From NCBI GenBank assembly GCA_011050685.1, contig DRFF01000031.1:1-42239 (forward strand): DNA of 42,239 nt, in the 5' to 3' direction. The DNA is from Aurantimonas coralicida. Its GTDB lineage: Bacteria > Pseudomonadota > Alphaproteobacteria > Rhizobiales > Rhizobiaceae. Below are positions 16,271 through 37,066 of this stretch, in pieces. Below the pieces are notes generated by a model. The model was not told the origin of the DNA, ran no database searches, and saw only the letters and a list, made by a program, of their open reading frames with translations. Position 1 is the first letter of the stretch. Each line of letters opens with the position of its first letter. Position numbers and translations under genes: made by a program.

Positions 16271-16357
16271 CCGAAGCCCGGCTGACGGGTGTCGCTGGCC
16301 CACAGTTCAGCTTCGATGGGTCTCGGCCGAGGGGAGATCGCGCGCCGAAGTCCGGAC

Positions 16358-16385
16358 TTGCAATGAGATAGTTTAACTATAAAAT
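16358..16385 (+). promoter_or_regulatory. Putative promoter of the flavoenzyme gene
   Basis: A -35-like TTGCAA (16358-16363) and a -10-like TAAAAT (16380-16385) are separated by 16 bases and lie just upstream of the gene at 16427. The operator at 16369-16386 covers the spacer and -10, as expected for repression by promoter occlusion. The arrangement resembles the one proposed upstream of livK. Confidence 0.45.
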
Positions 16386-16386
16386 A
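16369..16386 (+). promoter_or_regulatory. MarR-type operator candidate, site A
   Basis: TAGTTTA-ACTA-TAAAATA is an imperfect palindrome (six of seven arm positions pair) centred about 50 bases before the start of the fused monooxygenase/reductase. Both arms are identical to those at 25951-25968 and 32670-32687. The AT-rich block stands out in GC-rich DNA. Confidence 0.7.
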
Positions 16387-16426
16387 TCTTGTGCGACGGC
16401 CCGTTCGACCCGACAGGAGAGAGCCC

Positions 16427-18808
16427 ATGCGTATCACCGTGATCGGTGGCGGTCCTGGTGGCCTCTATTTCGCGCTGCTGACCAAGAAGCGGCGACCGGA
16501 CTGGTCGGTCGAAATCTACGAGCAGAACCGTGCCGACGACACGTTTGGCTTCGGCGTCGTATTCTCCGACGAAACGCTGCACGAGTTCCTGTCGCGCGAT
16601 CGCGAATCCTTCAATCGCATCCGCACCGAATTCGCCTATTGGGACGACGTGGCAATCCACAAGCAGGGCACCGAGATGCGCTGCGCCGGCAACGGCTTTG
16701 CCGGCATCTCGCGGATGAAGCTTCTCGCCATCCTGCAGCAGCGCTGCCGGGAGGAGGGGGTGGGCCTGCACTTTTCCGAGGCAGTTCCGCCGGAAGAGAT
16801 CGCGACGCGCTTCGCCGATTCCGATGTCGTCGTCGCCGCGGATGGCGTGAACTCGCGCATTCGCGAGCACTTTCGTGAGGCCTTCCAGCCCGAGTTGACG
16901 ATCAAGTCGAACCGCTTCTGCTGGATGGGCTCCACCCGGCCGATGGACGAGTTCAACTATTTCTTCCGCGAGACCGAGCACGGCATCGTCTGCGCCCACT
17001 GCTACCAGTACGAACCGGGTCGCTCGACCTGGGTGTTCGAGATGGATGAGGCCTGCTTTCAGGGCCTCGGCTTCTCGGAGACCGACGAGGAGGATTCCCG
17101 CGCCAAGCTCGAAGCGCTCTACGAGGAAGAGCTGGAGGGGCACGGTCTGTTGCTCAACCGTTCGCAATGGCGCCGGTTTCCCCGCATTTTTTGCCATCGC
17201 TGGTCGCACGAGAACATCGTGCTGCTCGGCGATGCCAAGGCCTCGGCGCATTTTTCGATTGGCTCGGGCACCAAGCTCGCCATGGAATGCGCGATCTCCC
17301 TGTCCGATGCGGTCGTCGACCACGGCGAAACGAGCGTCGAGGCGGCGTTCGCGACCTATGACGCGGAGCGGCGCACGCCCTGCCAGATCATCCAGCACAA
17401 TGCCGACGTGTCGCTCGCCTGGTTCGAGCATATGAACCGCTCCTGGGACATGAGCCCGGAGCAGTTCTCGATGGTCGTCATGTGCCGGGCGAAGTCGATC
17501 ACCTACGACAATCTGATCGTCCGCGATCCTCGCTTCGTCGAGCAGGTCGACACCGCCTATTACGAACAACTTTATCGCGAGACCGGCGACGATTACCGCG
17601 ACACCCGACCGACGCCGATGTTCACGAAATTCCGCCTCCGCGACATGGAGATTCAGAACCGCGTGGTGATGTCGCCGATGGCGCAATATTCGGCCGACGC
17701 CAATGGCAATCCAACCGACTGGCACTTCGTCCACTACACGTCACATGCCCTCGGCGGTCCTGGCCTCGTCTTCACGGAGATGACCTGTCCGTCGGCCGAC
17801 GCGCGGATCACGCCGGGCTGCACCGGACTGTGGACCGACCACCACGAGGCCGAGTGGAAGCGGATCGCCGACTTTGTCCATACTCACACGACAACGAAGA
17901 TGGTGATGCAGCTCGGCCATGCCGGTCGCAAGGGCTCGACCCAGCTCGGCTGGGAGAAGATGGACCGGCCGCTCGCGGACGCGGCGAAGAACTGGCCGAT
18001 CTATTCGGCCTCGCCGATCCCTTATTTCGAGGGTGTCAGCCAGGTTCCGGCGGAACTCGACCGCGAAACGATGGACCGCATCCGGGACGATTTCGTCCAG
18101 GCGACGAAGCGGGCCGAGCGGGCCGGCTTCGACATGGTCGAGCTCCATTGCGCCCATGGCTATCTGCTCGCCTCGTTCCTCTCACCGCTGACCAACACGC
18201 GCCAGGACGCCTATGGCGGGGCGATCGAGAACCGGCTGCGCTATCCGCTGGAGGTGTTCGAGGCGATGCGCGCAGTCTGGCCGGCGGAAAAGCCGATGTC
18301 GGTGCGCATTTCCGCGACCGACTGGCAGGAAGGGGGTATCGACGAAGCCGACAGCGTCGCGATCTCCAAAGCCTTCGCCGAGGTCGGCTGCGACCTCATC
18401 GACGTTTCAGCCGGGCAGACGGTCGCCGACCAGACTCCGATCTATGGCCGGATGTTCCAGGTGCAGTTCGCCGAGGCGATCCGCAACGTGCCGAAGCTGG
18501 CCGTGATGGCCGTCGGCGCGATCACCGAGCCCGCGCAGGTCAACACGATCCTGCACACGCGCCGCGCCGATCTCGTCGCGCTCGGCCGGCCGCATCTATG
18601 GAACCCGTATTTCACCCGCGAGGCCGCCGCCTGGTACGACGCGCGCAACCAGCACTGGCCGAAGCAGTATCTTGCCGGACGTGACCAGGCGCATCGCGAA
18701 CTGGCGAAAAAGCGCGAGCAGGACATTGAAACCCGGCGCAAGGCGCGCCCACGGCCGCACGACGCCGAGGCTCCGGCGGGCACCCTCCGGCGCGAGGCGG
18801 CGGAGTAG
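16427..18808 (+). CDS. abmA: 2-aminobenzoyl-CoA monooxygenase/reductase type flavoenzyme (also named salicylyl-CoA 5-hydroxylase/oxidoreductase)
   Basis: This 793-residue fusion has two flavin domains. Residues 1 to about 375 are a PHBH-fold FAD monooxygenase, with GGGPGG at 7-12, VVAADGVNSRIR, and LLGDAKASAHFSIGSGTK near 268. From about residue 395 there is an Old Yellow Enzyme (YqjM-like) FMN reductase: RVVMSPMAQYS, MQLGHAGRKGS, HCAHGYLLASFLSPLTN and AYGGAIENR. This is the design of anthraniloyl-CoA monooxygenase/reductase, which hydroxylates the ring with O2 and then reduces it to a non-aromatic oxo-enamine CoA ester. Automated pipelines often call it salicylyl-CoA 5-hydroxylase. I favour the aminobenzoyl-CoA reading because ligase, Rid, crotonase and dehydrogenase genes are near and no gentisate dioxygenase is seen. 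AGGAGAG precedes the ATG; operator site A lies upstream. Confidence 0.85.
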   Translation: MRITVIGGGPGGLYFALLTKKRRPDWSVEIYEQNRADDTFGFGVVFSDETLHEFLSRDRESFNRIRTEFAYWDDVAIHKQGTEMRCAGNGFAGISRMKLLAILQQRCREEGVGLHFSEAVPPEEIATRFADSDVVVAADGVNSRIREHFREAFQPELTIKSNRFCWMGSTRPMDEFNYFFRETEHGIVCAHCYQYEPGRSTWVFEMDEACFQGLGFSETDEEDSRAKLEALYEEELEGHGLLLNRSQWRRFPRIFCHRWSHENIVLLGDAKASAHFSIGSGTKLAMECAISLSDAVVDHGETSVEAAFATYDAERRTPCQIIQHNADVSLAWFEHMNRSWDMSPEQFSMVVMCRAKSITYDNLIVRDPRFVEQVDTAYYEQLYRETGDDYRDTRPTPMFTKFRLRDMEIQNRVVMSPMAQYSADANGNPTDWHFVHYTSHALGGPGLVFTEMTCPSADARITPGCTGLWTDHHEAEWKRIADFVHTHTTTKMVMQLGHAGRKGSTQLGWEKMDRPLADAAKNWPIYSASPIPYFEGVSQVPAELDRETMDRIRDDFVQATKRAERAGFDMVELHCAHGYLLASFLSPLTNTRQDAYGGAIENRLRYPLEVFEAMRAVWPAEKPMSVRISATDWQEGGIDEADSVAISKAFAEVGCDLIDVSAGQTVADQTPIYGRMFQVQFAEAIRNVPKLAVMAVGAITEPAQVNTILHTRRADLVALGRPHLWNPYFTREAAAWYDARNQHWPKQYLAGRDQAHRELAKKREQDIETRRKARPRPHDAEAPAGTLRREAAE

Positions 18809-19593: not shown

Positions 19594-19647
19594 GAAGGCT
19601 CCTGCCGGGGCGGGCGGCGGTGGTTCGTTTGTCTGGACGTGACGGTT

Positions 19648-20508
19648 TCAGGAGTTCGGGGCACCCGTCAAGATCGCGACGAGTTCGCTCGCCGGATCGC
19701 CGAGTTCGTCGATGACATCGAAATGATGCTGTCCCGGCCGTTCGACTGCTCGCGTCCGCACGCCGAAACCATGCCAGACATTGGCGAGCAGCGCGTTCTG
19801 ACGGCGAAATTCGTCAAGCTCGGCGCGACCGACGAGACAGGTGATATCGATATTCGCGCGCGGCTCCAAAAGCGCAGGGCTCTCGGCACGTGCCTCGGCA
19901 AGATCGAGCTGGAGGATGTCGTTCATGCCGGCCGCGAGCAGCGGGCGAAGGTCGTGAACGCCGCTGATCGAAACGGTGCGGTCGATGCGGTCTGCTGTGG
20001 CACGCGCGATCGGCGCGTCGATGCAGAGCATGCGCGAGACGAGATGGCCGCCCGCCGAATGACCGCAGAGGCGGATCGGCCCGGGAATCTCGCCGGCAAC
20101 GTGGTCGAGGAACGCGCCGATTTCGCGTGTGATCGCGCCGATCGTCGCGTCGGGGCAGAGCGTATAGCTCGGCATAGCGACCGCATGGCCGCGCTGCAGC
20201 GCCCCTTCGGCCAGATGCGACCAGACCGATTTGTCGAAGGCTTTCCAGTAGCCACCATGGACGAAGACGATGAGACCGATCGGAGCCGTGTCCGGGAGAA
20301 ACAGATCGTACAGGTTGCGCGGCGCTTGGCCATAGACGCGATCGAGCCGGGCGCGTCCGGCCGAAGCGAGATGTTCCCGGAAGGCCGCGGCCGCGGCTGC
20401 CCACCGTGGCGGATAGGACTGCGATCCGACGATCGCCGCACTGTTGGCATAGGCCGCGTCGAAGTCGGTCAACGGCTCGGCGCCGGGCTGCCAGAAACTC
20501 TGCGTCAT
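19648..20508 (-). CDS. Alpha/beta hydrolase, kynurenine formamidase (AFMID/BNA7)-like
   Basis: The product is 286 residues from the ATG at 20508, with AAGGATC upstream. The oxyanion motif HGGYW (residues 84-88) is diagnostic of the eukaryotic-type arylformamidases, and the nucleophile elbow is GHSAGGH (Ser151). A late GQHHFDVID (about 259-267) supplies the catalytic His. Most bacteria use the unrelated KynB cyclase-like formamidase, so this is the other family. The known reaction is hydrolysis of N-formylkynurenine to kynurenine and formate. In this operon it could equally act on N-formylanthranilate to feed the anthranilate-CoA ligase; no tryptophan dioxygenase or kynureninase gene is present. 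It lies 19 bases after the Rid gene. Confidence 0.82.
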   Translation of the reverse strand: MTQSFWQPGAEPLTDFDAAYANSAAIVGSQSYPPRWAAAAAAFREHLASAGRARLDRVYGQAPRNLYDLFLPDTAPIGLIVFVHGGYWKAFDKSVWSHLAEGALQRGHAVAMPSYTLCPDATIGAITREIGAFLDHVAGEIPGPIRLCGHSAGGHLVSRMLCIDAPIARATADRIDRTVSISGVHDLRPLLAAGMNDILQLDLAEARAESPALLEPRANIDITCLVGRAELDEFRRQNALLANVWHGFGVRTRAVERPGQHHFDVIDELGDPASELVAILTGAPNS

Positions 20509-20527
20509 GTGGCGTCGTGATCCTTGG

Positions 20528-20983
20528 TCAGTCCGGCACAATGGCGGTGGCTTCGATCTCGACCAGCGCCTTCGGCTCGACCAGATCGGAGACCTCGACC
20601 AGTGCCATCGCCGGGAAGTGGCGCCCCATGACCCGGCGATAGACGGGTCCGAGTTCGGCCAACGAAGCGCGGTAGGTGGGAATGCTCCTGACATACCATG
20701 TCAGCCGCGCGATGTGCTCGGCTCCGCCCCCGGCTTCGGATACGACGGCGAGCACATTCTTCAGGGTCTGTTCGACCTGGGCGACGAAATCATCGGGGAA
20801 TTCCTCATTCTCGTCCCAGCCAATCAGCCCGCCGGTCAGGACCATGTTGCCCCGTCCCATCACGCCGTTGGCGTAGCCTTTTGGCGTCGGCCAACCCGCT
20901 GGTTGCAAAGCTGTCAGGCCGCCTTTGGCGGTCGGGCGATTGGATGTCGCGGCTTCGCCGACGATCGGACGGGTCAGGTTCAC
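20528..20983 (-). CDS. Rid family protein (YjgF/YER057c/UK114), atypical
   Basis: This 151-residue protein starts at a GTG overlapping the ligase stop (GTGA). It has the Rid fold pattern: VLTGGLIGW, QVEQTLKNVLAVVSEAG, LTWYVRSIPTY and a final VEIEATAIV. RidA hydrolyses reactive enamines and imines to ketone and ammonium. The Arg that is hallmark of active RidA (FPARS in E. coli, R105) is replaced by Met126 here (FPAMA), while the VEIE strand is kept, so it belongs with the non-archetypal Rid groups. Its place between the CoA ligase and formamidase-like genes suggests a role on the enamine formed from 2-aminobenzoyl-CoA. Confidence 0.88.
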   Translation of the reverse strand: MNLTRPIVGEAATSNRPTAKGGLTALQPAGWPTPKGYANGVMGRGNMVLTGGLIGWDENEEFPDDFVAQVEQTLKNVLAVVSEAGGGAEHIARLTWYVRSIPTYRASLAELGPVYRRVMGRHFPAMALVEVSDLVEPKALVEIEATAIVPD

Positions 20984-22620
20984 GCCATTTCTCCCTGGCT
21001 GGCTTCCCGTTCCGCCTGCTGGCGCAGTGCGAAGCGTTGCAGTTTGCCCGATTCGGTCTTCGGCAGCGCCTCGACGAAGACTATCGACCGGGGGTACTTA
21101 TAGGGCGCCAGGTCCTGTTTCACATGGTCCTGCAGCGCCTTGACCAAGGCCGCATCCCCGGCTTGGCCGTCCGCCAGCAGCACATAGGCTTTGACGATAC
21201 AGCCGCGGTCCGCGTCCGGGGCACCGACGACTCCGGCTTCCGCGACGGCCGGATGCGCGAGGAGCGAGGCTTCGACCTCCGGCCCGGCGATGTTGTAGCC
21301 CGAGGACACGATCATGTCGTCGTTGCGCGCCTTGAACCAGAAATAGCCGTCCGCGTCCTCGACATAGGTGTCGCCGGTGATGTTCCAGCCGCTTTGGACA
21401 TACGCAGCCTGCCGGTCGTCGGCGAGGTAGCGGCAGCCGACCGGACCGCGCACGGCGAGGTGTCCGGGCGTACCGGTCGGGCAGCGCTTGCCGTCGGCGT
21501 CGATCACCCGCGCTTCGTAGCCCGGCACCGGTCTGCCGGTGGCGCCCCGCCGGATATCGTCTTCGCGCGCGGCAATGAAGATATGCAGCATTTCCGTCGC
21601 GCCGATCCCGTCCATCAGCTTGAGTCCGGTCGCCTTCAACCAAGCCTCATAAGTTGGAGGCGGCAATGTCTCCCCAGCCGAGACGCATTTGCGTAAGGAA
21701 GAGAGATCGAACTCCTCGCTCTTGGCCGCGATGGCGCGATAGGCTGTGGGCGCGGTGAAGCAGACGGTCGCGCGATAATCGCCGATCGCCTTGGCGAGAT
21801 CCAGCGGTGCGGCCTTTTCGATCAGCACGGCCGTCGCGCCAATCCGAAACGGGAACAGGACAACGCCGCCGAGGCCAAACGTAAAGGCGAGGGGAGGAGA
21901 GCCGATGAAAACGTCGTCCGCATTCGCCCGTAGCACGTCTTTCGCGTAGCAGTCGCAGATGATGAGAAGGTCCCGGTGATAGTGGATCGTCGCCTTGGGA
22001 AGGCCGGTGGTTCCCGATGTGAAGCCGAGAAGGCAGGAGTCGTCCGCCCGTGTCGCCGCCGCGTCGAACCGGTCGGAGACGTTTTCGAGCAGTTCACCCA
22101 GCTCTCCGCCCGCTGTTCCGGACCACGTCACGACGCGGGCGAGCACAGGCGACGCGGAGGCGGCGTTATCCATTTCGTCGCTCAGCGATGCATCGCAGAA
22201 TGCGAGGTCGATCCGCGCCTTGTCGATGATCTTGACGAGTTCCTTGGCCCGTAAGAGCGGCATCGTCGCCACGACGATCCCACCCGCCTTGATCACCGCC
22301 ATATACAGCGCCACCAGCGTCGGGTTGTTGGCCGAGCGCAGCAGCACTCGGTTGCCGGGGACGAGGCCAAGCTTGCCGACCAGCACATTGGCCATCCGAT
22401 CGATCAACCGGGCAAGTTCGGCATAGGTCCAGGACACGTCCGGGCCAATCACCGCGACGCGTTCGCCGCGACCCTCGGCAACGTGGCGGTCGACGAGTTC
22501 GACCGTGGCGTTTAGTTGCGCCGGGTAGCCGAGTCGGTCGAGATTGATGAAGTCCGGCATCTGGTCAGCCGACGGCAAATTGTCGAGGACGAAGGTGTCG
22601 ACGTGACACGTGTCGGTCAT
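20980..22620 (-). CDS. abmG: 2-aminobenzoate-CoA ligase (anthranilate-CoA ligase), benzoate-CoA ligase family
   Basis: This 546-residue AMP-forming acyl-CoA synthetase has GFTSGTTGLPK (TSGTTGLPK at 201-209), the conserved middle region GIGATEMLHIFIAA, SGWNITGDTY, and a C-terminal KTESGKLQRF with catalytic Lys near 526. The N-terminal FVLDNLPSADQMPDF and RLGYPAQLN are like those of the AbmG group. The enzyme would activate anthranilate with ATP and CoA in the cytoplasm. Other aryl acids (benzoate, salicylate) cannot be excluded from sequence alone. AGGAG precedes the ATG by 7 bases. The stop overlaps the Rid start, and the acyl-CoA dehydrogenase gene ends 10 bases upstream. Confidence 0.85.
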   Translation of the reverse strand: MTDTCHVDTFVLDNLPSADQMPDFINLDRLGYPAQLNATVELVDRHVAEGRGERVAVIGPDVSWTYAELARLIDRMANVLVGKLGLVPGNRVLLRSANNPTLVALYMAVIKAGGIVVATMPLLRAKELVKIIDKARIDLAFCDASLSDEMDNAASASPVLARVVTWSGTAGGELGELLENVSDRFDAAATRADDSCLLGFTSGTTGLPKATIHYHRDLLIICDCYAKDVLRANADDVFIGSPPLAFTFGLGGVVLFPFRIGATAVLIEKAAPLDLAKAIGDYRATVCFTAPTAYRAIAAKSEEFDLSSLRKCVSAGETLPPPTYEAWLKATGLKLMDGIGATEMLHIFIAAREDDIRRGATGRPVPGYEARVIDADGKRCPTGTPGHLAVRGPVGCRYLADDRQAAYVQSGWNITGDTYVEDADGYFWFKARNDDMIVSSGYNIAGPEVEASLLAHPAVAEAGVVGAPDADRGCIVKAYVLLADGQAGDAALVKALQDHVKQDLAPYKYPRSIVFVEALPKTESGKLQRFALRQQAEREASQGEMA

Positions 22621-22630
22621 GGCGTTCTCC

Positions 22631-23785
22631 TCAAGCAGCTTGCGACAGGAGTTGGCGGGCGATGACGAGTTTCTGGACCTCCGTGGCGCCTTCGTAAATT
22701 CGCAGCGCCCGGATCTCGCGATAGAGTGTCTCGGGAACCGAACCGGAACGCACCCCTTCGGCGCCGTGGATCTGTACGGCGCGGTCGATGACCTCTTGTG
22801 CGCTTTCGGTCGCCACCATCTTGGCCATCGCGGCTTCGCGCGTGATCCGCGGCGCGCCGGCATCGCGGGTCCAGGCGGCGCGGTAGACGAGGAGAGCGGA
22901 GGTATCGATGGCCGTCGCCATCTCCGCCAATGCGGTCTGGGTGAGCGGCAAATCGGCAAGCGGCCCGCCGAAAAGCTGACGGGTACGCGCCCGATCCAGC
23001 GTGACGTCGAGGGCGCGGCGAGAAAAGCCGAGCGCGGCGGCCCCAACGGTGGAGCGGAACACGTCGAGCGTCGCCATGGCGATCTTGAAGCCGTCCCCGC
23101 CATTGCCGATGCGGTTCGTCACCGGGATGCGGCAGTCGTCGAATGTCAGGCGTGCCAGCGGATGCGGCGCAATCGTCTCCAACCGCTCGGCGATCACCAG
23201 GCCGGGCGTGTCGGCCGGCACCGAAAACGCCGAGAGCCCCTTCGCGCCCGGCGCCTCGCCGGTCCGCGCGAAGACCACGTAATGATCGGCGATGCCGCCA
23301 TTGGAAATCCAGATCTTCTCGCCATCGAGCCGGACCATGTCGTTGCCGGCGGGCGTGGCCTTCAGCGCAATCTGGGCGACGTCCGACCCCGCCTCGGGCT
23401 CGGTCAGGGCGAAGGCGGCAATGGTCTCGCCGGCGCGCACGCCCGGAAGAATCCGCCGCTTCAGCTCGTCGGACCCGGAGAGGGTCAGGGCCCCGGTGCC
23501 GAGCCCCTGCATGGCAAAGGCGAAATCGGCCAAGCCGTCGTGACGCGCGAAAGTCTCGCGCAGGATGCACAGGCTGCGGACGTCGAACCGCCCGTCCTCC
23601 GGCGCGGCATAAGCGAGGAAACCAACCGCGCCCATTGCCTCGACCAGCCGCCGGCAGCTGCCATCGATGTCGTGATGATCGGCGAGAGCGGGCACGTTAT
23701 CGGCGGCCCAGCGCTCGGCCTCGTCCGCCAGTCGGCGGTGGCGCTCCTCAAAGAACGGCCAGGCGAGGAAGCTCTTGTCCGCCAT
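22631..23785 (-). CDS. Acyl-CoA dehydrogenase family protein
   Basis: This 384-residue flavoprotein has all the family marks: [11 protein letters not shown], the FAD-binding [22 protein letters not shown], a VQIHGAEGV segment, and [18 protein letters not shown] at the C-terminus with the expected catalytic Glu near 365. Acyl-CoA dehydrogenases introduce a 2,3 double bond and pass electrons to ETF. Here it probably acts on an alicyclic or linear dicarboxylic CoA intermediate downstream of the fused flavoenzyme. It lies 4 bases after the crotonase gene and 10 before the ligase gene, within one operon. Confidence 0.9.
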
Positions 23786-23789
23786 CGTC

Positions 23790-24623
23790 TCAGTTTCCCT
23801 CGAAGACCGGCTGACGCTTTTCGGCGAAGGCCTCGAAGGCCCGGCGGAAGTCGCCAGTCTTCATGCACAGCGCCTGGGCGATCGCCTCCGCGTCGATGGC
23901 CTCGTCGACACCCATCGCCCATTCCATCTGCAGCATCCGCTTGGTCACGGAATTGGCGTAGGTGGGCCCTTCGGTCAGCGCCTTCGCCATCTCCATGGCG
24001 GCATCGAGCGCGCCCCCCTTGTCGGCGAGGCGGTTGAAGAACCCCCAGCGCTCGCCCTCTTCGGCACTCATGAAGCGGCCGGTGTAGAGCAATTCCGAGG
24101 CGCGGCCCTGGCCGACGATGCGTGGCAGGATCGCACAGGCGCCCATGTCGCACCCGGCAAGTCCGACGCGGTTGAACAGGAACGCGACTTTCGCACCTGC
24201 CGCTCCGACCCGCATATCCGACGCCATTGCCATGATCGCGCCGGCGCCAGCGCACACGCCCTCGATCGCGCTGATCACCGGCTGCGGACAGGCCCGCATC
24301 TCCTTGACCAGATCGCCGGTCATCGTCGTGAAGGCATGAAGCTGAGAGGCGCTCATTTTGGTCAGCGACTCGATGATCTCGAAAACGTCGCCGCCGCTGG
24401 AGAAATTGCCGCCGGCGCCGGTGAGCACGACGGCCGTCACCGTGTCGTCGAAGCGCAGCGCGTGGAAGGTGTCGCGCAGTTCGGCATAGCTCTCGAAGGT
24501 CAGCGGATTTTTCCGCTCCGGCCGGTTCAGTGTCACGGTCGCGATCCCGCCCGCGATCGACAGGCGAAAATGCTCCGGCGCGAAGTCGGCGAGTGGCGCG
24601 GCGACGGCGTTCTGGCGTTTCAT
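23790..24623 (-). CDS. Crotonase (enoyl-CoA hydratase/isomerase) family protein with altered active site
   Basis: This 277-residue crotonase-fold protein starts at an ATG overlapping the MarR stop (ATGA). The oxyanion-hole regions are [12 protein letters not shown] (about 71-82) and CAGAGAI (124-130). The two catalytic Glu residues of classical hydratases are missing: the first position is Ile130, the second falls at Phe150/Asn151. A downstream GLAGCDMGA offers Asp159 instead. It is therefore unlikely to be an ordinary hydratase; crotonase relatives with an Asp in this area include BadI and MenB, and BadI opens 2-ketocyclohexane-CoA rings. A ring-opening role on the beta-oxo-CoA intermediate is inferred from the operon. 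Confidence 0.85.
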
Positions 24624-25165
24624 GATGTCTCCCCGCGGACGATCGGCGTCCGTACGCTGTTGCTGACCTTGCGGACTGAGACCTTGAGATCGCCCAGCTG
24701 ATTCCAGAGTGCCTCCTGCTCGGCCGGAGCAAGTTCCCCGAGCATCTCGGCGATCCAGTTGCCGTGCGCTTCCGCCATTGTCGCGAAAACCGATCGCCCC
24801 TTGGCTGTCAGGCGGACACGGACCGCGCGGCGATCGGTCTCGGAGACCTGACGTTCGATGAGGTCTTCCTGGACGAGACGATCGACCAACCCCGTCACAT
24901 TGCCGTTGGAAACCATCATCCGGCGGGACAGCTCGCCCAAGAGAATGCCGTCCGGCGAACGCTCGAGCTGCGCCATCAAATCGAAGCGCGGAAGGGTGGT
25001 GTCGAACTCTTCGCGCAGCCGTTTGCGGATCCTGGCCTCGACCAAATTGGCGCAGGTCAGCAAGCGCAACCAGAGGCGCAATTCGGCGCGGTGGTGTTGC
25101 GGACTTTCGCGCACCTTGGATTCGGCATCGATAGGATCGACCGTCTCGCGTCGGGCGTTGCTCAC
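24620..25165 (-). CDS. MarR family transcriptional regulator of the catabolic cluster
   Basis: This 181-residue protein begins at a GTG that overlaps the SDR stop (GTGA) and ends in an ATGA overlap with the crotonase gene. The winged helix is clear: [22 protein letters not shown] is the recognition region, followed by the wing with [21 protein letters not shown]- and C-terminal helices for dimerisation flank it. Regulators of this group repress aromatic degradation genes and let go when an aryl-CoA or aromatic acid binds. Three identical-arm palindromes upstream of this operon, the flavoenzyme gene and the livK operon are its likely sites, which would also make it autoregulatory. Confidence 0.9.
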
Positions 25166-25935
25166 AGCTCACCTCCCGCGACCGCGATCGCCTGTCCGGT
25201 GATGGCCGAGGCGCCGGCGCCAGCCAGCCAATGCACACAATCCGCCACCTCGTCGGGACGGATCAGTCGACCGAGAGGATTGGCGCCGGTGAATTCGGCG
25301 AGAAGGTCGGCGCGGGCGCGCCCGGTCTTCTCCTCCAGCTGGTCGAGCGACCCCGAAACGAGGTCGGTGTCCGTGTAACCCGGACAGACGGCGTTGACGG
25401 TGACGCCGGTCGGCGCGAGTTCCAGCGCCAGCGCCCGGGTAAGCCCAACAACGGCGTGTTTGGCGGCGCAATAGGCCCCAACATAAGGATAGCCCTTGAG
25501 CCCGGCGGTCGAGGCAATCGTGACGATCCGGCCGAAACCGCGCTCCTTCATGGCTGGCAGTACCGAGCGTATGGCGGTCAGCACCGGCTCGACATTCAGC
25601 GCCATCATCCGGCGTAGCTGATCGACATCGAGCCGGGAGATCGGCGCGGTCTCGGCTCCACCGGCGTTGTTGACCAGGATGTGGATGGGGCCAGAGCGTG
25701 TGGTGGCGGTGTCGAGCGCCTGTTCCAAGGCGGCGGCATTGGTGACATCCGCCGCGACCGCGGCGGCGGCGCCAAGTTCGGCGCGGACCTGCTCGGCGCC
25801 ATCTTGAGAGCGTGCCAGCACTGTCACCGTATCGCCCGAAGCGACAAAGCGCTCGGCAATCGCCCTTCCGATGCCGCGGGAGGCGCCGGTGACGAGGATA
25901 TGTCGGGGCCGTCGTTCGATGGTCACGGGGATCAT
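25162..25935 (-). CDS. Short-chain dehydrogenase/reductase, probable 3-hydroxyacyl-CoA dehydrogenase
   Basis: This 257-residue classical SDR has the cofactor motif TGASRGIG (16-23), NNAG (89-92), catalytic Ser in IASTAG (about 142) and the YxxxK pair Y155/K159. The pattern suits an NAD(P)-dependent alcohol or 3-hydroxyacyl-CoA dehydrogenase of the FabG type. As first gene of the - strand operon it likely oxidises a hydroxy-CoA intermediate of the pathway. The ATG at 25935 sits only 15 bases from operator site B; a GTG at 25926 with AGGA 8 bases upstream is an equally plausible start. The stop overlaps the marR start. Confidence 0.9.
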
Positions 25936-25950
25936 CCTGCATCCGGAAAC

Positions 25951-25968
25951 TATTTTAACATTAAACTA
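25951..25968 (-). promoter_or_regulatory. MarR-type operator candidate, site B
   Basis: On the - strand it reads TAGTTTA-ATGT-TAAAATA, with arms identical to sites A and C. It ends 15 bases before the SDR start, so it must overlap the promoter or leader of the degradation operon. A TTGCAA at 25980-25985 could be the -35 element; the -10 is not clear. Confidence 0.7.
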
Positions 25969-26027
25969 ATAAATCGGACTTGCAATCGGCATCCTGCATG
26001 GCCCGCCCTGTCACGGGACAACACGTC

Positions 26028-27290
26028 TCAGGCGTTGGCGGCTCTGCGCTCCGTCTGACCGCCGGATTGGGCGGCGAAGCCGGCTTTTCCCGCATAGCCG
26101 CTGACGATTGCCTGGCGTTCGGCGCGGCTCAGCACGGAATCAACCTGATCGAAGCCACCGGGCGCCAGCTTCTCGACTTCGTCGATGACCCGCTCGGGGC
26201 CGCCCTTGCGGTTGAGTCGCACCACCTCGGCGGTCGTCGGCAGCCGGTCCCGTTCGTATTCCCACAGCGCCTGGCAGGGGTGCTCGGCGCGATGCAAGGC
26301 GTCGGCGAGGGAGCGGGCGTCTAGGATCGCCTGCGAGGCGCCGTTGGAGCCGACCGGGTACATCGGATGGGCCGCGTCACCGAGCAACGTGACCCGGCCA
26401 AAGGTCCAGCGGGGCAGGGGGTCGCGGTCGCACATCGGATATTCGAAAGCCTGCGGCGTCGCCTCGACGAGCGCGGCGACACCGAAATCGGGAATGGTGA
26501 AGCGCTTGGCGTAGGGCAGCACCAGCGAGCGCAACGCCGGTCGCGACCAGCTTTCCTTGGGCGGCGGCGAGGTCTTGCCGTCGGCCATCTTGACGTTGAC
26601 CACCCAATTCATCAACTGCTTGCCGTTGTCGAGTTCGGCGATGGGATAGAGTACGAATTTGGCACCCATGCCGCCGCCGATCGCCATCGTCCGGCCGTCG
26701 TCCCATGAGGTCCATTCGGTCGCGCCGCGCCACATCAGAACGCCGTTCCAGCATGGCGCTCCCTCGTCAGGGTAGAAGTGACGCCGGCCGGCCGAGTGGA
26801 TGCCATCGGCGCAAACGAGGATGTCGCCCCGCACCGTCGTTCCGGCGTCGCCCTTCACCGCGTCGGTGAAATGCGCAGTCACGCCGCCTTCGTCCTGCAT
26901 GAACCCGGAAAGGCTCAGCCCAGTCTTTACCGCGTCCGGTCCGAGCCGCTCGATCACAGCGTCGTGGATGACCTTCTGCAGCTTTCCGCGATGGATCGAG
27001 AATTGCGGCACCGGATGGCCGGCGTCAATGCCGCGCGGCTCGCGCCAGACCTCCTGGCCAAGGCGATTGTAGTAGACCAGCTCGCGGGTGCGGATGCCGA
27101 CCTTGTCGAGCGCCGGCAGCAGTCCGACCTCGGCGAGTTCCCGGATCGCATGGGGGAGGGTGTTGATTCCGACCCCTACTTCGCGAACCTCGGAAGAGTG
27201 CTCGTAGACCTCGGCCCGGATGCCGCGCTTGTGCAGCATCAACGCGGCGGTCAGCCCGCCGATGCCGGCCCCGACGATGATCACTTTCAT
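26028..27290 (-). CDS. FAD-dependent monooxygenase, PhzS-like
   Basis: The product is 420 residues from the ATG at 27290, with GGAGG 7 bases before the start codon. The FAD site is GAGIGG (7-12), the DG motif is CADGIHS (about 160-166), and GDAAHPMYPVGSNGASQAI begins near 304. The segments VGVGINTLPHAIRELAEVGL, WREPRGIDAGHPVPQFSIHRG and MWRGATEW closely parallel PhzS, the 5-methylphenazine-1-carboxylate 1-monooxygenase, which hydroxylates with loss of the carboxyl group. Related salicylate and 3-hydroxybenzoate hydroxylases are more distant. It is the last gene of the livK operon, 31 bases after the cupin gene. The substrate is unknown; an aromatic acid is likely. Confidence 0.88.
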   Translation of the reverse strand: MKVIIVGAGIGGLTAALMLHKRGIRAEVYEHSSEVREVGVGINTLPHAIRELAEVGLLPALDKVGIRTRELVYYNRLGQEVWREPRGIDAGHPVPQFSIHRGKLQKVIHDAVIERLGPDAVKTGLSLSGFMQDEGGVTAHFTDAVKGDAGTTVRGDILVCADGIHSAGRRHFYPDEGAPCWNGVLMWRGATEWTSWDDGRTMAIGGGMGAKFVLYPIAELDNGKQLMNWVVNVKMADGKTSPPPKESWSRPALRSLVLPYAKRFTIPDFGVAALVEATPQAFEYPMCDRDPLPRWTFGRVTLLGDAAHPMYPVGSNGASQAILDARSLADALHRAEHPCQALWEYERDRLPTTAEVVRLNRKGGPERVIDEVEKLAPGGFDQVDSVLSRAERQAIVSGYAGKAGFAAQSGGQTERRAANA

Positions 27291-27321
27291 GGTCTGTCCT
27301 CCAGTCCCGGGGCCGTGTGGA

Positions 27322-27780
27322 TTACTCGGCATCCGGCGGCGGCAGGAAATCCACCTCGTGCTTGGCGGAGATGGCGACGACTTCGGCCGGATCGGCCGCC
27401 GGCCCGAGATTGTGTAACGCCCAGAAGAGATCGTAGAGCCGACGCGCCGGCGAAACCCAGAAGAGGCACTTCACGTCGGCATCGCTGCGATTAAAGATAC
27501 CGTGCGGTATGCCGCGTGGCAGGCGGATCGTGTCACCCGGCTGGGCGAAGGTCTCCTGGCCGTCGAGGACCAGATCCAACCGGCCCTGAAACATGTAGAT
27601 GAACTCGTCCTGGGTCGGATGGATATGCGGCGGCACGAAGGTGCCGACGGGAAACGTCGCGTGCCAGGACAGCGAACTCTCGCAGTGGTGTTTCGGGATG
27701 TAGGTCTGGCCAAGGATGTTCCAGCGGATGCCGTCGATGCCTTCGTCGGCCTTGGTCACCCCGGCGGTCATGATCGTCAT
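27322..27780 (-). CDS. Small cupin protein, possible metalloenzyme
   Basis: This 152-residue single-domain cupin starts at an ATG with GGGAGA 7 bases upstream. Cupin motif 1 is complete, PPHIHPTQDEFIYMFQG with H52, H54 and E59. Motif 2 is GDTIRLPRGIPHGIFN with H93, so all four usual metal ligands are present and catalysis (dioxygenase, isomerase or decarboxylase) is possible. It is much shorter than gentisate dioxygenase and lacks a second cupin domain. It lies between livF and the PhzS-like gene, suggesting that the two act in sequence on an aromatic compound. No substrate can be assigned. Confidence 0.82.
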   Translation of the reverse strand: MTIMTAGVTKADEGIDGIRWNILGQTYIPKHHCESSLSWHATFPVGTFVPPHIHPTQDEFIYMFQGRLDLVLDGQETFAQPGDTIRLPRGIPHGIFNRSDADVKCLFWVSPARRLYDLFWALHNLGPAADPAEVVAISAKHEVDFLPPPDAE

Positions 27781-27816
27781 CGAATATCTCCCTTCGACGT
27801 TGCGAGTTGGTCAGTG

Positions 27817-28515
27817 TCAAACATGCAGAAACCGGTCCTTGATCTCCGGCGTCGACCTGAGTTCATCCGTCGTTCCGGTCCAGGCGACGCGGCCCTTCTC
27901 GATGACGACGTGTCGGTCGGCAAAACGGGCGAGCGCGTCGACGTTCTTGTCGATGACGAGGATCGCCGCCCCGGCATCCTTGATGGCGGCGAGGCAGGTC
28001 CAGATCTCCTCGCGAATGAGCGGAGCGAGCCCTTCGGTCGCTTCGTCAAGGACGACGAGCCGGGGATTGGTCATCAGCGCGCGGCCGATCGCCAGCATCT
28101 GCTGTTCGCCGCCGGACAGTTGATTGCCCATATTGCGCCGACGCTCCTGAAGGCGTGGGAACAGCCGGTAAATTTTGGTCAGCGTCCATTCGGCGGGCCC
28201 CGTACCGGCGCGGTGGGTAGCCACGAGGTTCTCTTCGACCGAGAGCGTCGGAAATATCTGCCGACCTTCCGGCACCAGGCCAAGGCCGTGCTTGGCAATG
28301 ACGTGGGGCGGGCGCCCGGTGACGTCGCCGCCGTCGATGAGAATTCGGCCGCCGCGCGGCTTCAACAGCCCGAACAGGGATTTGACGGTCGTGGTCTTGC
28401 CCATGCCGTTGCGGCCGAGCAGCGTAACGACCTCGCCCGCCGCGACGGTGAGATCGATCCCGAACAGGATGCGGGAGTCGCCATAGCCGCTTTCCAGACC
28501 TTCGATCGCCAACAT
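27817..28515 (-). CDS. livF: Branched-chain-type ABC transporter ATP-binding protein LivF
   Basis: This 232-residue ATPase has Walker A GRNGMGKTT, signature LSGGEQQM and Walker B LVVLDEATEGLAP, the LivF subtype with GLVPEGRQIFPTLSVEENL. It energises uptake with LivG at the cytoplasmic face. Its start shares one base with the livG stop. Members of this HAAT family import branched-chain amino acids but also aromatic acids; the gene neighbourhood here points to an aromatic substrate. Confidence 0.94.
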   Translation of the reverse strand: MLAIEGLESGYGDSRILFGIDLTVAAGEVVTLLGRNGMGKTTTVKSLFGLLKPRGGRILIDGGDVTGRPPHVIAKHGLGLVPEGRQIFPTLSVEENLVATHRAGTGPAEWTLTKIYRLFPRLQERRRNMGNQLSGGEQQMLAIGRALMTNPRLVVLDEATEGLAPLIREEIWTCLAAIKDAGAAILVIDKNVDALARFADRHVVIEKGRVAWTGTTDELRSTPEIKDRFLHV

Positions 28516-29270
28516 CAGGCGGCCTCCTCTTCGCCGAGGTAGGCACTGCGCACTTCGGGGTCCAGGCGCACCTCCTCCGGGGTGCCGGTGGCGATCAGCC
28601 GCCCATAGACGAGAACGCTCACCCGGTCGGCGAGAGCGAACACCGCCTCCATGTCGTGTTCGACGAGAACGACGGTGTGCGTGGACTTCAGCTCCCGCAT
28701 CAGCGCGACGAGCACAGCGGATTCTTCGTGGCCCGTTCCCGCGAGCGGTTCGTCCAGCAGGAGCAATCGCGCCCCGGTGGCCAAGGCGATCGCGATCTCG
28801 AGTTGACGCTTTTCGCCGTGCGACAGGCTGCCGGCGCGGCGGTCCGCCCGGTCGTCCAGACGGACGCGTGCCAGCGCCGCCATCGCCTCGTCGTTGAGCC
28901 GGGTTTCGCGCGCCGCCGGCGTGAAGAAGCGGAAGCTCGAGCCCGACCGCGCCTGGACGGCCATTGCGGCGTTTTCCAGGACGGTGAAGCCGTCGAGGAT
29001 CGAGGTAATCTGGAATGACCGCGCAAGACCACGGTGCACCCGCCCGGCCATGCCGAGCCGGGTGATGTCCTCGCCGGCGAAGTGGACGGTGCCGGAATTA
29101 CCGCGGAGGTTTCCCGAGAGCTGATGGATCAGCGTCGTCTTGCCTGCCCCGTTCGGTCCGATGATTGCATGGAGTTCGCCGGGTGCGACATCGAGGCTGA
29201 CATCATCGGTAACAGCGAGCGCACCATAGGATTTTCTGAGATTGCGGACCTCGAGCAACGGTGTCGTCAT
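28515..29270 (-). CDS. livG: Branched-chain-type ABC transporter ATP-binding protein LivG
   Basis: The product is 251 residues from the ATG at 29270, which overlaps the livM stop (ATGA); the longer frame upstream is only antisense-like read-through of livM. Walker A is GPNGAGKTT, the signature SLSHGEKRQLEIAIAL and Walker B LLLLDEPLAG. The helical insert between Walker A and the signature (residues about 100-140) is the feature that separates LivG from LivF. It pairs with LivF beneath the LivHM channel. Confidence 0.94.
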   Translation of the reverse strand: MTTPLLEVRNLRKSYGALAVTDDVSLDVAPGELHAIIGPNGAGKTTLIHQLSGNLRGNSGTVHFAGEDITRLGMAGRVHRGLARSFQITSILDGFTVLENAAMAVQARSGSSFRFFTPAARETRLNDEAMAALARVRLDDRADRRAGSLSHGEKRQLEIAIALATGARLLLLDEPLAGTGHEESAVLVALMRELKSTHTVVLVEHDMEAVFALADRVSVLVYGRLIATGTPEEVRLDPEVRSAYLGEEEAA

Positions 29271-30289
29271 GACCTCGCCCCCCCGGATAGACGGGAGGCG
29301 AAACCGGCGATGCCGCCGCGGGTGAAGAGGACGAGGAGCACGAGGAGAATGCCGAGCCAGAGCTTCCAGTGTTCGGAAAACTGCGCCAGCCAATCCTCCA
29401 GCAGCAGAAACGTGATCGCCCCGGCGATCGCGCCGACGAGGGTTCCCATGCCGCCGAAGACGACCATGACGATCAGCTCGCCCGAGCGTTGCCACGTCAT
29501 GTAGGCAGGCGAGACGAACTCCGCCTGATTGGCGAGGAAGACGCCAGCGACGCCGGCAATCGCGCCCGCGATGACATAGGCGGTCAGTTGGTACGGGAAG
29601 GGGGCAAAGCCGATGGCCTGCATGCGGAGCCGATTGTCGCGGGTTCCCCGCAGCACCCGGCCGAAGCGTGAGGCGACCAGCGCTCTCAGGCCGACAAAGG
29701 CGGCGACGAGGAAACCGAGGGCGCCGTAGAATAGGACGAGATCGCTCTCCAACACATCTGTGCCGAACAGCGTCGAGCGGTTGGTGAGGGTGATGCCGTC
29801 ATCGCCGCCATAGGCCGACAGCGAGACCATGAAAAAATACGCCATTTGGCCGAAGGCGAGGGTGATCATGATGAAATAGACGCCCTTGGTCCGCAACGAG
29901 ATCGCCCCGGTGATCAGGGCGAAGAGCGCCGAAACCAGGCTGGCGACAAGCGTCTGAAGCAAAATGTCCTCGATACCGTTCGCCGCCAGGATCGCGACGG
30001 CATAAGCCCCAAGCCCGATGAAGGCGGCGTGGCCGAAGGACACCATGGCGCCGTAGCCGAGCACGAGGTCGAGCGAAAGCGCCGCGATCGCGAAGATCGT
30101 CAGGCGGGTCGCGGTAACGAGCAGAAACGGATCGCCGAGCGCCCATGCCAGCAATGGCAGGAGCCCGAGACCGGCGAAGATGACAGCGGCCGCGACACTG
30201 GCGCCATGGCGCCCGAGAACCGGGCGACGAACGGGTCCGACGTCGATCTGCGAATTGGAGACAGCAGCGTCCGACAGGCCCGAGGTCAT
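29267..30289 (-). CDS. livM: Branched-chain-type ABC transporter permease LivM
   Basis: This 340-residue membrane protein has about nine to ten helices, with the LivM landmarks LVLGYGAMVSFGHAAFIGLGAYA near residue 75 and GVFLANQAEFVSPAYMTW and VMVVFGGMGTLVGAIAGA toward the end. About 30 hydrophilic residues precede the first helix. It forms the inner-membrane channel with LivH. The start overlaps the livH stop by four bases and the stop overlaps the livG start. Confidence 0.94.
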   Translation of the reverse strand: MTSGLSDAAVSNSQIDVGPVRRPVLGRHGASVAAAVIFAGLGLLPLLAWALGDPFLLVTATRLTIFAIAALSLDLVLGYGAMVSFGHAAFIGLGAYAVAILAANGIEDILLQTLVASLVSALFALITGAISLRTKGVYFIMITLAFGQMAYFFMVSLSAYGGDDGITLTNRSTLFGTDVLESDLVLFYGALGFLVAAFVGLRALVASRFGRVLRGTRDNRLRMQAIGFAPFPYQLTAYVIAGAIAGVAGVFLANQAEFVSPAYMTWQRSGELIVMVVFGGMGTLVGAIAGAITFLLLEDWLAQFSEHWKLWLGILLVLLVLFTRGGIAGFASRLSGGARS

Positions 30290-31212
30290 TGGACGGTCCC
30301 TTTGGTCGGAAACAGCCCGGAGGGCCTGAAGAACAAGACCGCCGCCATCAGGATGTAGATCAGCATCGGCGCCAGGGTTCGGCCGGTCTGCGAAGCGGCC
30401 GACGGGTCCATCAGGCTGCGCAACAGGATCGGCCCGAAGGTGCGGCCGAGCGTGTCGACCAGACCCACGAGGATTGCCGCGACGAAAGCGCCACGGACCG
30501 ACCCGACGCCGCCGATGACGATGACGACGAAGGTCAGGATCAGGACGCTATCGCCCATGCCGGGCTCGACGGAAAGGATCGGCGCGACCATGGCGCCGGC
30601 AAAGCCCGCCAGCATTGCCCCGAGGCCGAAGACGATCATGAACAGCCGGCCGATATCGACCCCGAGCGCCGAGACCATCGGTCCGTTGGTGGCGCCGGCC
30701 CGGAGCAGCATGCCGATCCGCGTGTGATTGACCATCAGATAGAGGCCAAGGGCAGTGACGAGACCGGAGGCGATGATGGCAACCCGGAAGAACGGATAGC
30801 GCATGTTGCCGATGAGCGGCATCGAGCCAGAAAGGATATCGGGGATCGGCACGCTCATCGGTGCCGCGCCCCAAATCATCTTCACCCCCTCATTGAGGAT
30901 CAGGATGAGCCCGAAAGTAGCGAGCACCTGATCGAGATGATCGCGGTCGTAGAGTCGCCGAAAGATCAGGAATTCCAGAACGATGCCGAAGGCGAGCGTC
31001 GCCGGAAGAGCGAGGGCCAGCCCGAGGAAGAAGTCACCGGTGAAGGCGGTGAAGGTCGCAGCCAGATAGGCGCCGACCATGTATAGAACGCCGTGCGCCA
31101 GGTTGATCAGGTCCATGACTCCGAAGATCAGAGTCAGCCCGGCGGCGACGAGGAACAAGAGGATGCCGAGTTGGATCCCGTTCAGCGCCTGGAGAAGAAA
31201 GAGGTTGAACAT
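30286..31212 (-). CDS. livH: Branched-chain-type ABC transporter permease LivH
   Basis: This 308-residue membrane protein has eight or so helices. The opening ALNGIQLGILLFLVAAGLTLIFGVMDLINLAHG is typical (LivH usually has GLINFAHG), and a later VVIVIGGVGSVRGAFVAAILVG matches the conserved cytoplasmic EAA-like loop. It is the second channel subunit. A 151-base gap containing a GC-rich hairpin separates it from livK, which should let the binding protein be made in excess. Confidence 0.94.
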   Translation of the reverse strand: MFNLFLLQALNGIQLGILLFLVAAGLTLIFGVMDLINLAHGVLYMVGAYLAATFTAFTGDFFLGLALALPATLAFGIVLEFLIFRRLYDRDHLDQVLATFGLILILNEGVKMIWGAAPMSVPIPDILSGSMPLIGNMRYPFFRVAIIASGLVTALGLYLMVNHTRIGMLLRAGATNGPMVSALGVDIGRLFMIVFGLGAMLAGFAGAMVAPILSVEPGMGDSVLILTFVVIVIGGVGSVRGAFVAAILVGLVDTLGRTFGPILLRSLMDPSAASQTGRTLAPMLIYILMAAVLFFRPSGLFPTKGTVQ

Positions 31213-31320
31213 CCGTGCCCTTCGGCGGCTCGTTCATCGCGGCAAGCGGCCATGATGCCATCCCGGCACCGCCAGTCCAGAACGGCGGCGCTCGACGTCG
31301 AGGTCGAACACCCGCTCGGC

Positions 31321-31348
31321 GCCGGCCGGGGCTTTTCGCCCGCCCGGC
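31321..31348 (-). terminator. Attenuating stem-loop between livK and livH
   Basis: GCCGG ... CCGGC outer arms and GGGC/GCCC inner arms enclose a TTTTC loop region, about 15 to 40 bases after the livK stop on the - strand. No T-run follows. Such hairpins commonly protect the binding-protein mRNA end and reduce read-through into the permease genes. Confidence 0.4.
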
Positions 31349-31363
31349 TTCAGGAGCGGGCCG

Positions 31364-32542
31364 CTACTGCATCTTGCATTCGGCGGCGTAGTTGTCCTGG
31401 TAGTCGTCGAAAATCTTCTCGGCGATCTCAGTCTGGTATTTGCCGTCGTCGCGCTTGGCCACCTTGACCAGATAGAAGTCCTGGATCGGATAGTGGTTGT
31501 TACCGAGCTTGAAATCGCCACGCAGCGACTGGAAGTCGGCTGCCTCAAGCGCTGAACGCAAAGCATCCTTGTCGTCGAGCTTGCCGGCGGCCTTGACCGC
31601 GCTGTCAATCAGCTGCGCAGCGTCGTAGGCCTGCATGGCGTAGGTGCCTGGAACGCTGCCGTATTTTTCCTCGTAGGCGGCGACGAAGGCCTTGGACTGC
31701 TCGTTGTCCATGTCCGGCGCCCAGTTGGCGCCGCCGTAGAAGCCGACGGCCGCATCCTGCTGGGCGGGCAGGGTCGTCTCATCGACGGTGAAGGCGGACA
31801 GAAACGGAATGTTATCGAGCCCCGCCTGCCGATACTGCTTGACGAGGTTCACGCCCATGCCGCCCGGCATGAAGGTGAAGACGGCGTCCGGCTGCTCTGC
31901 GGCGATCTGCGCGAGCTCGGCCGAGAAATCGAGCTGGCCGAGCGGCGTGTAGATCTCGTTGACCACCTCACCCTTGTAGGAATGCTTGAAGCCGGCCAGC
32001 GAATCTTTGCCCGCCTGATAGTTCGGGGCCAGCAGAAACAGGCGCTTGTAGCCGGTATCCTCGGCGTATTTGCCGAGAACCTCGTGAACCTGATCGTTCT
32101 GGTAGGAGGTAACGAAGAAATTCTCGTTGCACTCGGCCCCGGCGAAATTCGAGGTGCCCGCATTTGGGCTGATCAGGAAGGCGCCGCCATCGGTGACGGG
32201 CTTGGCGATCGCCATCAGGATGTTGGAAAAGATCGGGCCGACGACAAAGTCGACATCGTCGCGCTCAACCAGTTCGCGTGCCTTGTTGGCGGCGATATCG
32301 GGCTTCAGCTCGTCGTCGACGGTGGTGATCTCGGTCTCCAGGCCGCCGAGCTTGCCGCCCATCTTCTCGACCGCCAGCAGGAAGCCGTCGCGGCCCTGCT
32401 CGCCGAGCACCGCGGCGGGCCCGCTCAAAGTGAACATCAGGCCGATCTTCAGTTTTCCGTCGTCGGCTGTCTGCGCCATCGCCGCGCCGGACAAGGCCGT
32501 CGCGGTCAAAAGGGCGATGGTGGCGGTCCGGATCGCACTCAT
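31364..32542 (-). CDS. livK: Periplasmic substrate-binding protein LivK-type (aromatic acid uptake likely)
   Basis: The product is 392 residues from the ATG at 32542 (GGAG upstream), with a signal peptide ending AAMAQ near residue 23. The mature protein is a Peripla_BP_6 receptor: KIGLMFTLSGPAAVLGEQGRDGFLLAVE at the N-terminus, VDFVVGPIFSNILMAIAKPV, LISPNAGTSNFAG and a late GTYAMQAYDAAQLI. This group contains both amino acid receptors and receptors for benzoate-like acids. Being first gene of the unit that carries operator site C and ends with an aromatic monooxygenase, its ligand is more likely an aromatic acid such as anthranilate. That choice is inference. Confidence 0.9.
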   Translation of the reverse strand: MSAIRTATIALLTATALSGAAMAQTADDGKLKIGLMFTLSGPAAVLGEQGRDGFLLAVEKMGGKLGGLETEITTVDDELKPDIAANKARELVERDDVDFVVGPIFSNILMAIAKPVTDGGAFLISPNAGTSNFAGAECNENFFVTSYQNDQVHEVLGKYAEDTGYKRLFLLAPNYQAGKDSLAGFKHSYKGEVVNEIYTPLGQLDFSAELAQIAAEQPDAVFTFMPGGMGVNLVKQYRQAGLDNIPFLSAFTVDETTLPAQQDAAVGFYGGANWAPDMDNEQSKAFVAAYEEKYGSVPGTYAMQAYDAAQLIDSAVKAAGKLDDKDALRSALEAADFQSLRGDFKLGNNHYPIQDFYLVKVAKRDDGKYQTEIAEKIFDDYQDNYAAECKMQ

Positions 32543-32930
32543 CTCTTGATCTCCATTCAAAAAGGTCGCTAACAATGGTCCGTCCCCAGCCGGAGATCGG
32601 GCCGGCGCAAGCGTCGAAGATCCGCGCCGGAAATCAGTGGACATCGGAATTTCCGCCCCACACCAAAATTAGTTTACGCATAAAATATTGGCTGGCAACA
32701 GACGCTGGTCATATTTTTTGCCCGATGATTTTTTGTGCACTGCGAAGCGTATTCCGCCGGAACGGCGCTCCCACGGGCGTCCAACGGAAGCTCGCGAAAC
32801 TTCCGAAGGGGAAACCGAGTCAACTTGACGATTATTATCGTGGCTCTGGAAATTCCTCCCGGAATCACGCTATCATGCAGTCGTCATCTCGCTGGACCTC
32901 TCAGGCCAGTGCGAGATGGGGAGGGGTACC
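32543..32930. other. Divergent intergenic region between livK and the cox operon
   Basis: This 388-base stretch holds no supported gene. It has operator site C and a proposed livK promoter, and three GGAA/TTCC dyads: CGGAATTTCCG at 32645-32655, CGGAAG-N9-CTTCCG at 32785-32805 and GGAAATTCC at 32848-32856. For the cox operon, a -10-like TATCAT at 32871-32876 lies 18 bases after a weak -35 TGGAAA (32847-32852). Confidence 0.6.
32670..32687 (-). promoter_or_regulatory. MarR-type operator candidate, site C
   Basis: On the + strand it reads TAGTTTA-CGCA-TAAAATA, arms identical to sites A and B. On the - strand it covers a proposed livK promoter, -35 TTGCCA (32698-32693), 16-base spacer and -10 TAAACT (32676-32671). 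The site lies about 130 bases before livK and 243 before coxB, so livK is the likelier target. Confidence 0.68.
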
Positions 32931-33758: not shown

Positions 33759-33844
33759 GCAGGGCGGCGGCAGCGCCGAGATAAACGCCCAGCAATCCGA
33801 ACGAGAACGGCAGGGTGCGCCGGACGAAACAGGGAGGCAGAACG

Positions 33845-36321: not shown

Positions 36322-36334
36322 GAGGGCCGGGCGG

Positions 36335-37057: not shown

Positions 37058-37066
37058 GGAGCGGAC

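Follow-up and report, generated by a model that had tools for sequence, protein, structure and literature searches.

A MarR-type regulator and its probable operator at three promoters of a predicted anthranilate degradation cluster in Aurantimonas coralicida

Why does the sequence TAGTTTA-N4-TAAAATA recur directly upstream of three units of one catabolic locus in Aurantimonas coralicida, and which protein could recognize it? The locus lies within a stretch of 42,239 nucleotides, here called the window, and a sequence-only reading of it had proposed that the three copies mark the promoters of a single regulon with a MarR gene in its middle unit. An exact match is indeed found at all three places, namely at 16369..16386 (site A), 25951..25968 (site B) and 32670..32687 (site C), and each copy is located just 5' of one catabolic unit: site A precedes the monooxygenase gene on the plus strand, site B precedes the operon on the minus strand that contains an SDR gene and marR, and site C precedes the importer operon, also on the minus strand. 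The placement of site B is additionally supported by orthologous SDR promoters. As written, the motif reads on the plus strand at A and C and on the minus strand at B; when read in the direction of transcription, A and B are TAGTTTA..TAAAATA and C is TATTTTA..TAAACTA. Such a mixed orientation is expected from a symmetric operator, and the motif is an imperfect palindrome in which six of the seven arm pairs are complementary in each of the three copies.

The motif had been said to occur nowhere else in the window and to be far rarer than one per stretch of that length, and both statements hold. No additional match appears in the 42 kb even when up to three mismatches are allowed, and 100 dinucleotide shuffles gave a mean of only 0.08 matches. 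The whole-genome scan that the reading had suggested (4,861,057 bases in 202 contigs, 98.8% complete) returned the pattern TAKTTTA-N4-TAAAMTA only at sites A, B and C. A reversed version of the pattern, used as control, was absent from the whole 4.86-Mb genome. At up to two mismatches there are two extra places genome-wide, compared with nine for the control pattern, so that these two represent background. Many unrelated copies are thus not present in this genome, which holds three sites and otherwise only matches at background level, and a chance repeat is ruled out by the genome-wide count together with the shuffles.

The gene behind site A (16427..18808, plus strand) encodes a fusion protein of the anthraniloyl-CoA (2-aminobenzoyl-CoA) monooxygenase/reductase type, in which an FAD monooxygenase domain (FAD_binding_3, 29.8 bits, cut-off 22) is joined to an FMN reductase domain of the OYE type (Oxidored_FMN, 217.3 bits, cut-off 27), which is the domain composition of AbmA. 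In the KEGG naming, as given in PMC13141888, this monooxygenase is abmA and the corresponding ligase abmG. The middle unit behind site B runs on the minus strand and begins with an SDR-type dehydrogenase gene (25162..25935). It is followed by the gene for a MarR family regulator and presumed repressor (24620..25165), the MarR gene that had been noted in this unit. The winged-helix domain of the protein clears the curated cut-off of PF01047 (47.1 bits, cut-off 24.6), and among solved proteins it is closest in sequence to 3boq, a MarR for which no function is stated. Next come genes for an enoyl-CoA hydratase family protein (23790..24626; NF006107, 458 bits, cut-off 330), an acyl-CoA dehydrogenase (22631..23785), a ligase of the benzoate-CoA ligase family that is presumably a 2-aminobenzoate-CoA ligase (20980..22623; TIGR02262, 388 bits, cut-off 375), a RidA family protein of the enamine/imine deaminase type (20528..20983; PF01042) and an alpha/beta hydrolase with an approximate start (19648..20514), which scores above the cut-off of the hormone-sensitive lipase family model NF058665 and has kynurenine formamidase as its third-best solved relative. 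After the hydrolase, the end of the unit holds a stand-alone Lrp/AsnC ligand-binding domain of 80 residues (19351-19593, minus strand; PF01037, E 1.2e-12).

Site C is followed on the minus strand by a five-gene ABC importer of the branched-chain type, then a cupin gene and finally a second FAD monooxygenase gene. The importer comprises a substrate-binding protein (31364..32644; Peripla_BP_6), for which a signal peptide recognized by eye indicates that the start is probably at 32542, as well as two permeases and two ATP-binding proteins (27817..31212). The cupin protein (27322..27780; Cupin_2) has quercetin 2,3-dioxygenase as its best solved relative, with the match confined to residues 46-97, and the second FAD monooxygenase (26028..27332; FAD_binding_3) is closest among solved proteins to 2rgj/3c96, which we take to be PhzS.

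This gene set fits the CoA-dependent aerobic pathway of anthranilate degradation. In that pathway the ligase is followed by the 2-aminobenzoyl-CoA monooxygenase/reductase, which yields a cyclic enamine (PMC3534580). We suggest that the subsequent steps would comprise a RidA-type deamination and then beta-oxidation-type reactions. From its neighbouring genes, the fusion enzyme is predicted to be an anthraniloyl-CoA monooxygenase/reductase. It could also be that the regulon is correctly described and serves a different substrate, either salicylate, via 5-hydroxylation of salicylyl-CoA, or another aromatic acid. The best NCBIfam model for the monooxygenase is in fact that of a salicylyl-CoA 5-hydroxylase/oxidoreductase (NF006101), the cut-off of this model is passed by three relatives scanned, and the genome of the window has no match to kynureninase; however, the window enzyme itself stays below the cut-off (1034.4 versus 1078 bits), and the corresponding neighbourhood of a Shinella relative includes a gene for kynureninase, and we think that a substrate other than anthranilate is rather unlikely. 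Kynurenine as the source of anthranilate was rejected for the window genome, as no kynureninase match is present in an assembly that is 98.8% complete. Together with the hydrolase (19648-20514), the two enzymes encoded at 26028-27780, namely the cupin and the second FAD monooxygenase, could constitute an upstream branch that leads from a 4-quinolone-type compound to anthranilate; relatives of this second monooxygenase and of the cupin are also found in Methylobacterium and Bradyrhizobium clusters.

Conservation in orthologous loci was the second check that the reading had called for. In a family sample of 151 genomes, a MarR at 70-77% identity is encoded by six, not counting that of the window, and the motif is present with one to two mismatches in all six of these loci, in five of them at the SDR promoter. 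In A. manganoxydans (G137), the entire genome contains exactly three sites under a slightly widened pattern, located at the promoters of the SDR, importer and monooxygenase genes. The monooxygenase gene of this species is relocated beside the importer, yet every unit retains a site, and the proposed extent of the system (monooxygenase; SDR-marR-degradation operon; importer operon) recurs there with one site per unit. In three further genomes (G020, G027 and G037) the monooxygenase gene is 17-34 kb away from marR, yet a site is again located immediately 5' of it; this site is exact to the window pattern in G020 and G027 and to a widened pattern in G037. In a congener (G041), scanned with the same slightly widened pattern as G137, the MarR, the monooxygenase and the site are all absent. 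The close MarR of G035 is accompanied by RidA only, and a different contig of this genome holds its monooxygenase, a 51% relative.

For more distant relatives, a profile of seven aligned MarRs was used, and the best 80 of 578 relatives were kept; 79 loci were analyzed, with the exclusion of an uncultured Aurantimonas locus (L056) whose MarR is 93% identical. Most of these loci were chosen by MarR similarity, so that proximity to MarR is built into the set. The pattern applied here, as in the genome scan and in the count of exact sites in the family, was derived from the window. All 52 matches at up to one mismatch, and 87 of the 94 matches at up to two, fall inside the promoter windows of the monooxygenase, SDR, importer, ligase or marR genes, which make up 100,792 of 1,446,731 bases (7.0%). 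The reversed pattern gave no match in the 79 loci, and neither did five Markov resamplings of the promoter windows. At least one match at up to two mismatches was present in 58/79 loci and none in 21/79, and by promoter the operator was found at 40/59 monooxygenase, 21/45 importer, 27/64 SDR, 15/47 ligase and 7/80 marR genes. The site-bearing taxa include Methylobacterium, Microvirga, Bradyrhizobium, Stappia, Achromobacter and Delftia. Loci can also be picked by the monooxygenase, for which a scan of 397 genomes of the order gave 61 matches; of these, 30 were examined as loci, many of them from one genus. Besides the window's own locus, 28 of these 29 have an operator upstream at up to two mismatches (15 exact), taken as the best of about 460 positions with a pattern that was widened at one position per arm after viewing relatives, and for which the 79-locus control is the nearest one. 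The remaining locus (L144) has no operator, and in another (L143) a different MarR (31%) is found alongside the monooxygenase. The motif is thus conserved in the A. manganoxydans promoters and in both collections of loci.

Is it the adjacent MarR that recognizes these sites? The connection is an indirect one, made by co-occurrence and by a joint change of helix and operator in one clade. A MarR match (E <= 1e-20) is present in 31 of the 32 genomes scanned, and the exception is the congener G041, which is also without sites. Exact sites are found in 5/7 family genomes with a close MarR and in 18/144 others (Fisher p 0.0009, or 0.004 when the window's own genome is dropped, with both tests ignoring kinship). 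Recognition helix and operator also vary jointly. With patterns widened after viewing the relatives, the window-type operator occurs in 44/60 loci whose MarR helix has N87/G92, which show the variant AATTTYA-N4-TRAAATT in 5/60; loci with P87/V92 show this variant in 8/11 and the window type in 0/11, and other helices in the 80-locus set are accompanied by the window type in 7/9. In the MarR tree, whose long branches are weakly placed, the P/V group forms a well-supported class II clade on one side of a branch (support 100/97), and as it is a single clade, the joint change of helix and operator counts as one event. Two loci (L059 and L066) have MarRs that are 72% and 70% identical and yet lack a window-type site.

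The alternative that these are genuine operators of a different regulator, for example one encoded elsewhere, can point to the family sample, in which 15 of 30 exact sites have a MarR relative at a distance of up to 40 kb and the other 15 have none (a hand count, partly affected by contig ends), to three of the 23 site-bearing family genomes without a MarR match (G006, G076 and G126; hand count), and to the different MarR beside the monooxygenase of L143. The missing matches weigh less in G006 and G076, which comprise only 1.1 and 1.4 Mb, and the co-occurrence of MarR in nearly all scanned genomes, the enrichment of exact sites with a close MarR and the joint alteration of helix and operator in one clade all argue for the adjacent protein, so that we consider another regulator to be improbable.

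Two side observations concern other members of this MarR family. A clade from Roseomonas/Acetobacteraceae (L082, L088 and L094) has a helix ending in L-A-x-R-L-E and no window-type operator at up to one mismatch, and the promoters of L082 and L094 contain related sequences with two to three mismatches, perhaps a third operator type. In the Shinella locus (L104, 3937-8976), the kynureninase gene (TIGR01814, 363 bits, cut-off 246) is situated beside a class II MarR, and a GntR-like gene as well as genes for a second ABC importer can be recognized there by eye.

The position of sites A and C relative to their promoters would agree with repression. It had been described that sites A and C cover -35/-10 pairs with 16-base spacers and begin five bases past the -35 element, and a sigma-70 scan concurs: the pair TTGCAA-16-TAAAAT at 16358..16385 (plus strand) is overlapped by site A, and TTGCCA-16-TAAACT at 32671..32698 (minus strand) by site C. 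The scan of 16200-33000 (16.8 kb) gave four promoter-like pairs, a count that is unremarkable by itself given a mean of 1.9 in shuffles, and two of the four fall on sites A and C. Site B, as a point against this reading, has a different geometry, with a TTG 17 bases ahead of the motif instead of 11. Among the relatives, 93 site-gene pairs were compared at the genes for monooxygenase, importer and ligase (the window and L056 are included, and a shared divergent site may count twice), and 65 of them have a TTG 11-13 bases ahead of the motif, a distance that puts the right arm at the -10 position with a spacer of 16-18 bases. The half-sites keep a fixed distance as well: searched alone on both strands, the left half occurs 94 times in promoter windows, where 73 copies have the right half at offset 11 and a single copy has it at a different offset, and elsewhere it occurs seven times and never with a partner. 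The spacer, which the pattern leaves unconstrained, shows R-G-C-Y, with G at position 9 in 74%. That the repeats are mere AT-rich, -10-like core promoters without a common regulator is very improbable, because, even though the -10 element at A and C falls on the right arm and the upstream TTG is common among relatives, mirror-symmetric conservation extends over the two arms and the spacer, the halves pair at one offset, the motif is absent from the other promoters of the genome and site B retains it despite its different promoter geometry; bare -10 similarity was rejected on the basis of the offset test. Genes resembling those for cytochrome c oxidase (32916-37468; identified by visual inspection, with the exception of a coxB relative in L056) begin divergently from site C. 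As no coxB match was found beside the importer in the G137 region, it is unlikely that they are under the control of this site.

We return to the MarR of the cluster. Judging from sequence, the motif is very probably its operator, through which it would repress three promoters for CoA-dependent aerobic anthranilate catabolism and the associated importer until anthranilate or anthraniloyl-CoA releases it. A MarR dimer would bind the palindrome TA(G/T)TTTA-N4-TAAA(A/C)TA. At the monooxygenase and importer promoters the operator occupies the interval within the -35/-10 pair and overlaps the pair itself, a position that suggests steric exclusion of RNA polymerase, and its place just 5' of the SDR-marR operon suggests autoregulation. 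Bound MarR would in this way deny RNA polymerase access to all three units. Once anthranilate or anthraniloyl-CoA builds up, MarR would be released, and the importer, the CoA ligase, the monooxygenase/reductase and the beta-oxidation-type enzymes would be produced together. DNA binding, repression, the ligand and anthranilate as the substrate are what we infer; as far as sequence can take it, motif and MarR appear to be a well-supported regulator-operator pair and a familiar type of gene switch. A bolder extension would hold that this unnamed MarR family is a dedicated, deeply conserved regulator of CoA-dependent anthranilate catabolism in alpha- and some betaproteobacteria, that the terminal bases of the operator are determined by residues 87 and 92 of the recognition helix, and that the regulon of Aurantimonas, Methylobacterium and Bradyrhizobium also runs an unrecognised branch (FAD monooxygenase, quercetinase-like cupin and formamidase-like hydrolase) which cuts a 4-quinolone-type or other N-heterocycle to anthranilate. 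This combined view is speculative, and we hold it to be quite doubtful.

The analysis proposes a regulator, an operator and a list of targets for CoA-dependent aerobic anthranilate catabolism. The operator is sharp, with no match at up to one mismatch outside the promoter windows in 1.45 Mb of DNA from relatives, so that members of the regulon should be findable by sequence, including distant ones such as the monooxygenase genes of G020, G027 and G037, which are 17-34 kb away from marR. Should the ligand be confirmed, a sensor for anthranilate or anthraniloyl-CoA could be built on this MarR, and the natural change of helix and operator offers a test case for the specificity of MarR proteins. 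Searches of a literature collection found no described MarR operator or repressor for this pathway, and the consensus core of the relatives, searched as text, led to one paper that by its title is on another subject.

The nearest comparisons are with other catabolic loci under MarR control. The auxin catabolic regulators IadR and IacR also belong to MarR-controlled loci, and iad loci carry genes for ring-hydroxylating dioxygenases. Unlike these, the cluster contains no ring-hydroxylating dioxygenase among its annotated genes, and its MarR matches the 7kfo group of solved MarRs, presumably those from auxin-regulator work, with an E-value of only 1.6e-6. An auxin (iad) locus, which was considered because the iad route terminates in anthranilic acid (PMC9613470), was rejected on account of the missing dioxygenase and this weak match. 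The regulators CouR, FerC and HcaR of hydroxycinnamate catabolism are likewise local MarR repressors of a locus for aromatic-acid degradation; they serve another pathway. For CouR and FerC, release is brought about by the CoA thioester that the ligase of their pathway forms (PMC4737184 and PMC5487221), and for HcaR a review among these two sources mentions CoA-thioester inducers and yet binding of the unesterified ligand. Since CoA thioesters release CouR and FerC, but HcaR appears to bind the free ligand, anthraniloyl-CoA is by analogy only slightly favoured over anthranilate as the inducer. With regard to the enzymes, the closest parallels are Azoarcus (Aromatoleum) evansii and Arthrobacter Rue61a, which share the anthranilate-CoA ligase and the 2-aminobenzoyl-CoA monooxygenase/reductase (PMC3534580); for quinaldine degradation in Arthrobacter Rue61a the same source names PaaX-related regulators, whereas the cluster described here has a MarR.
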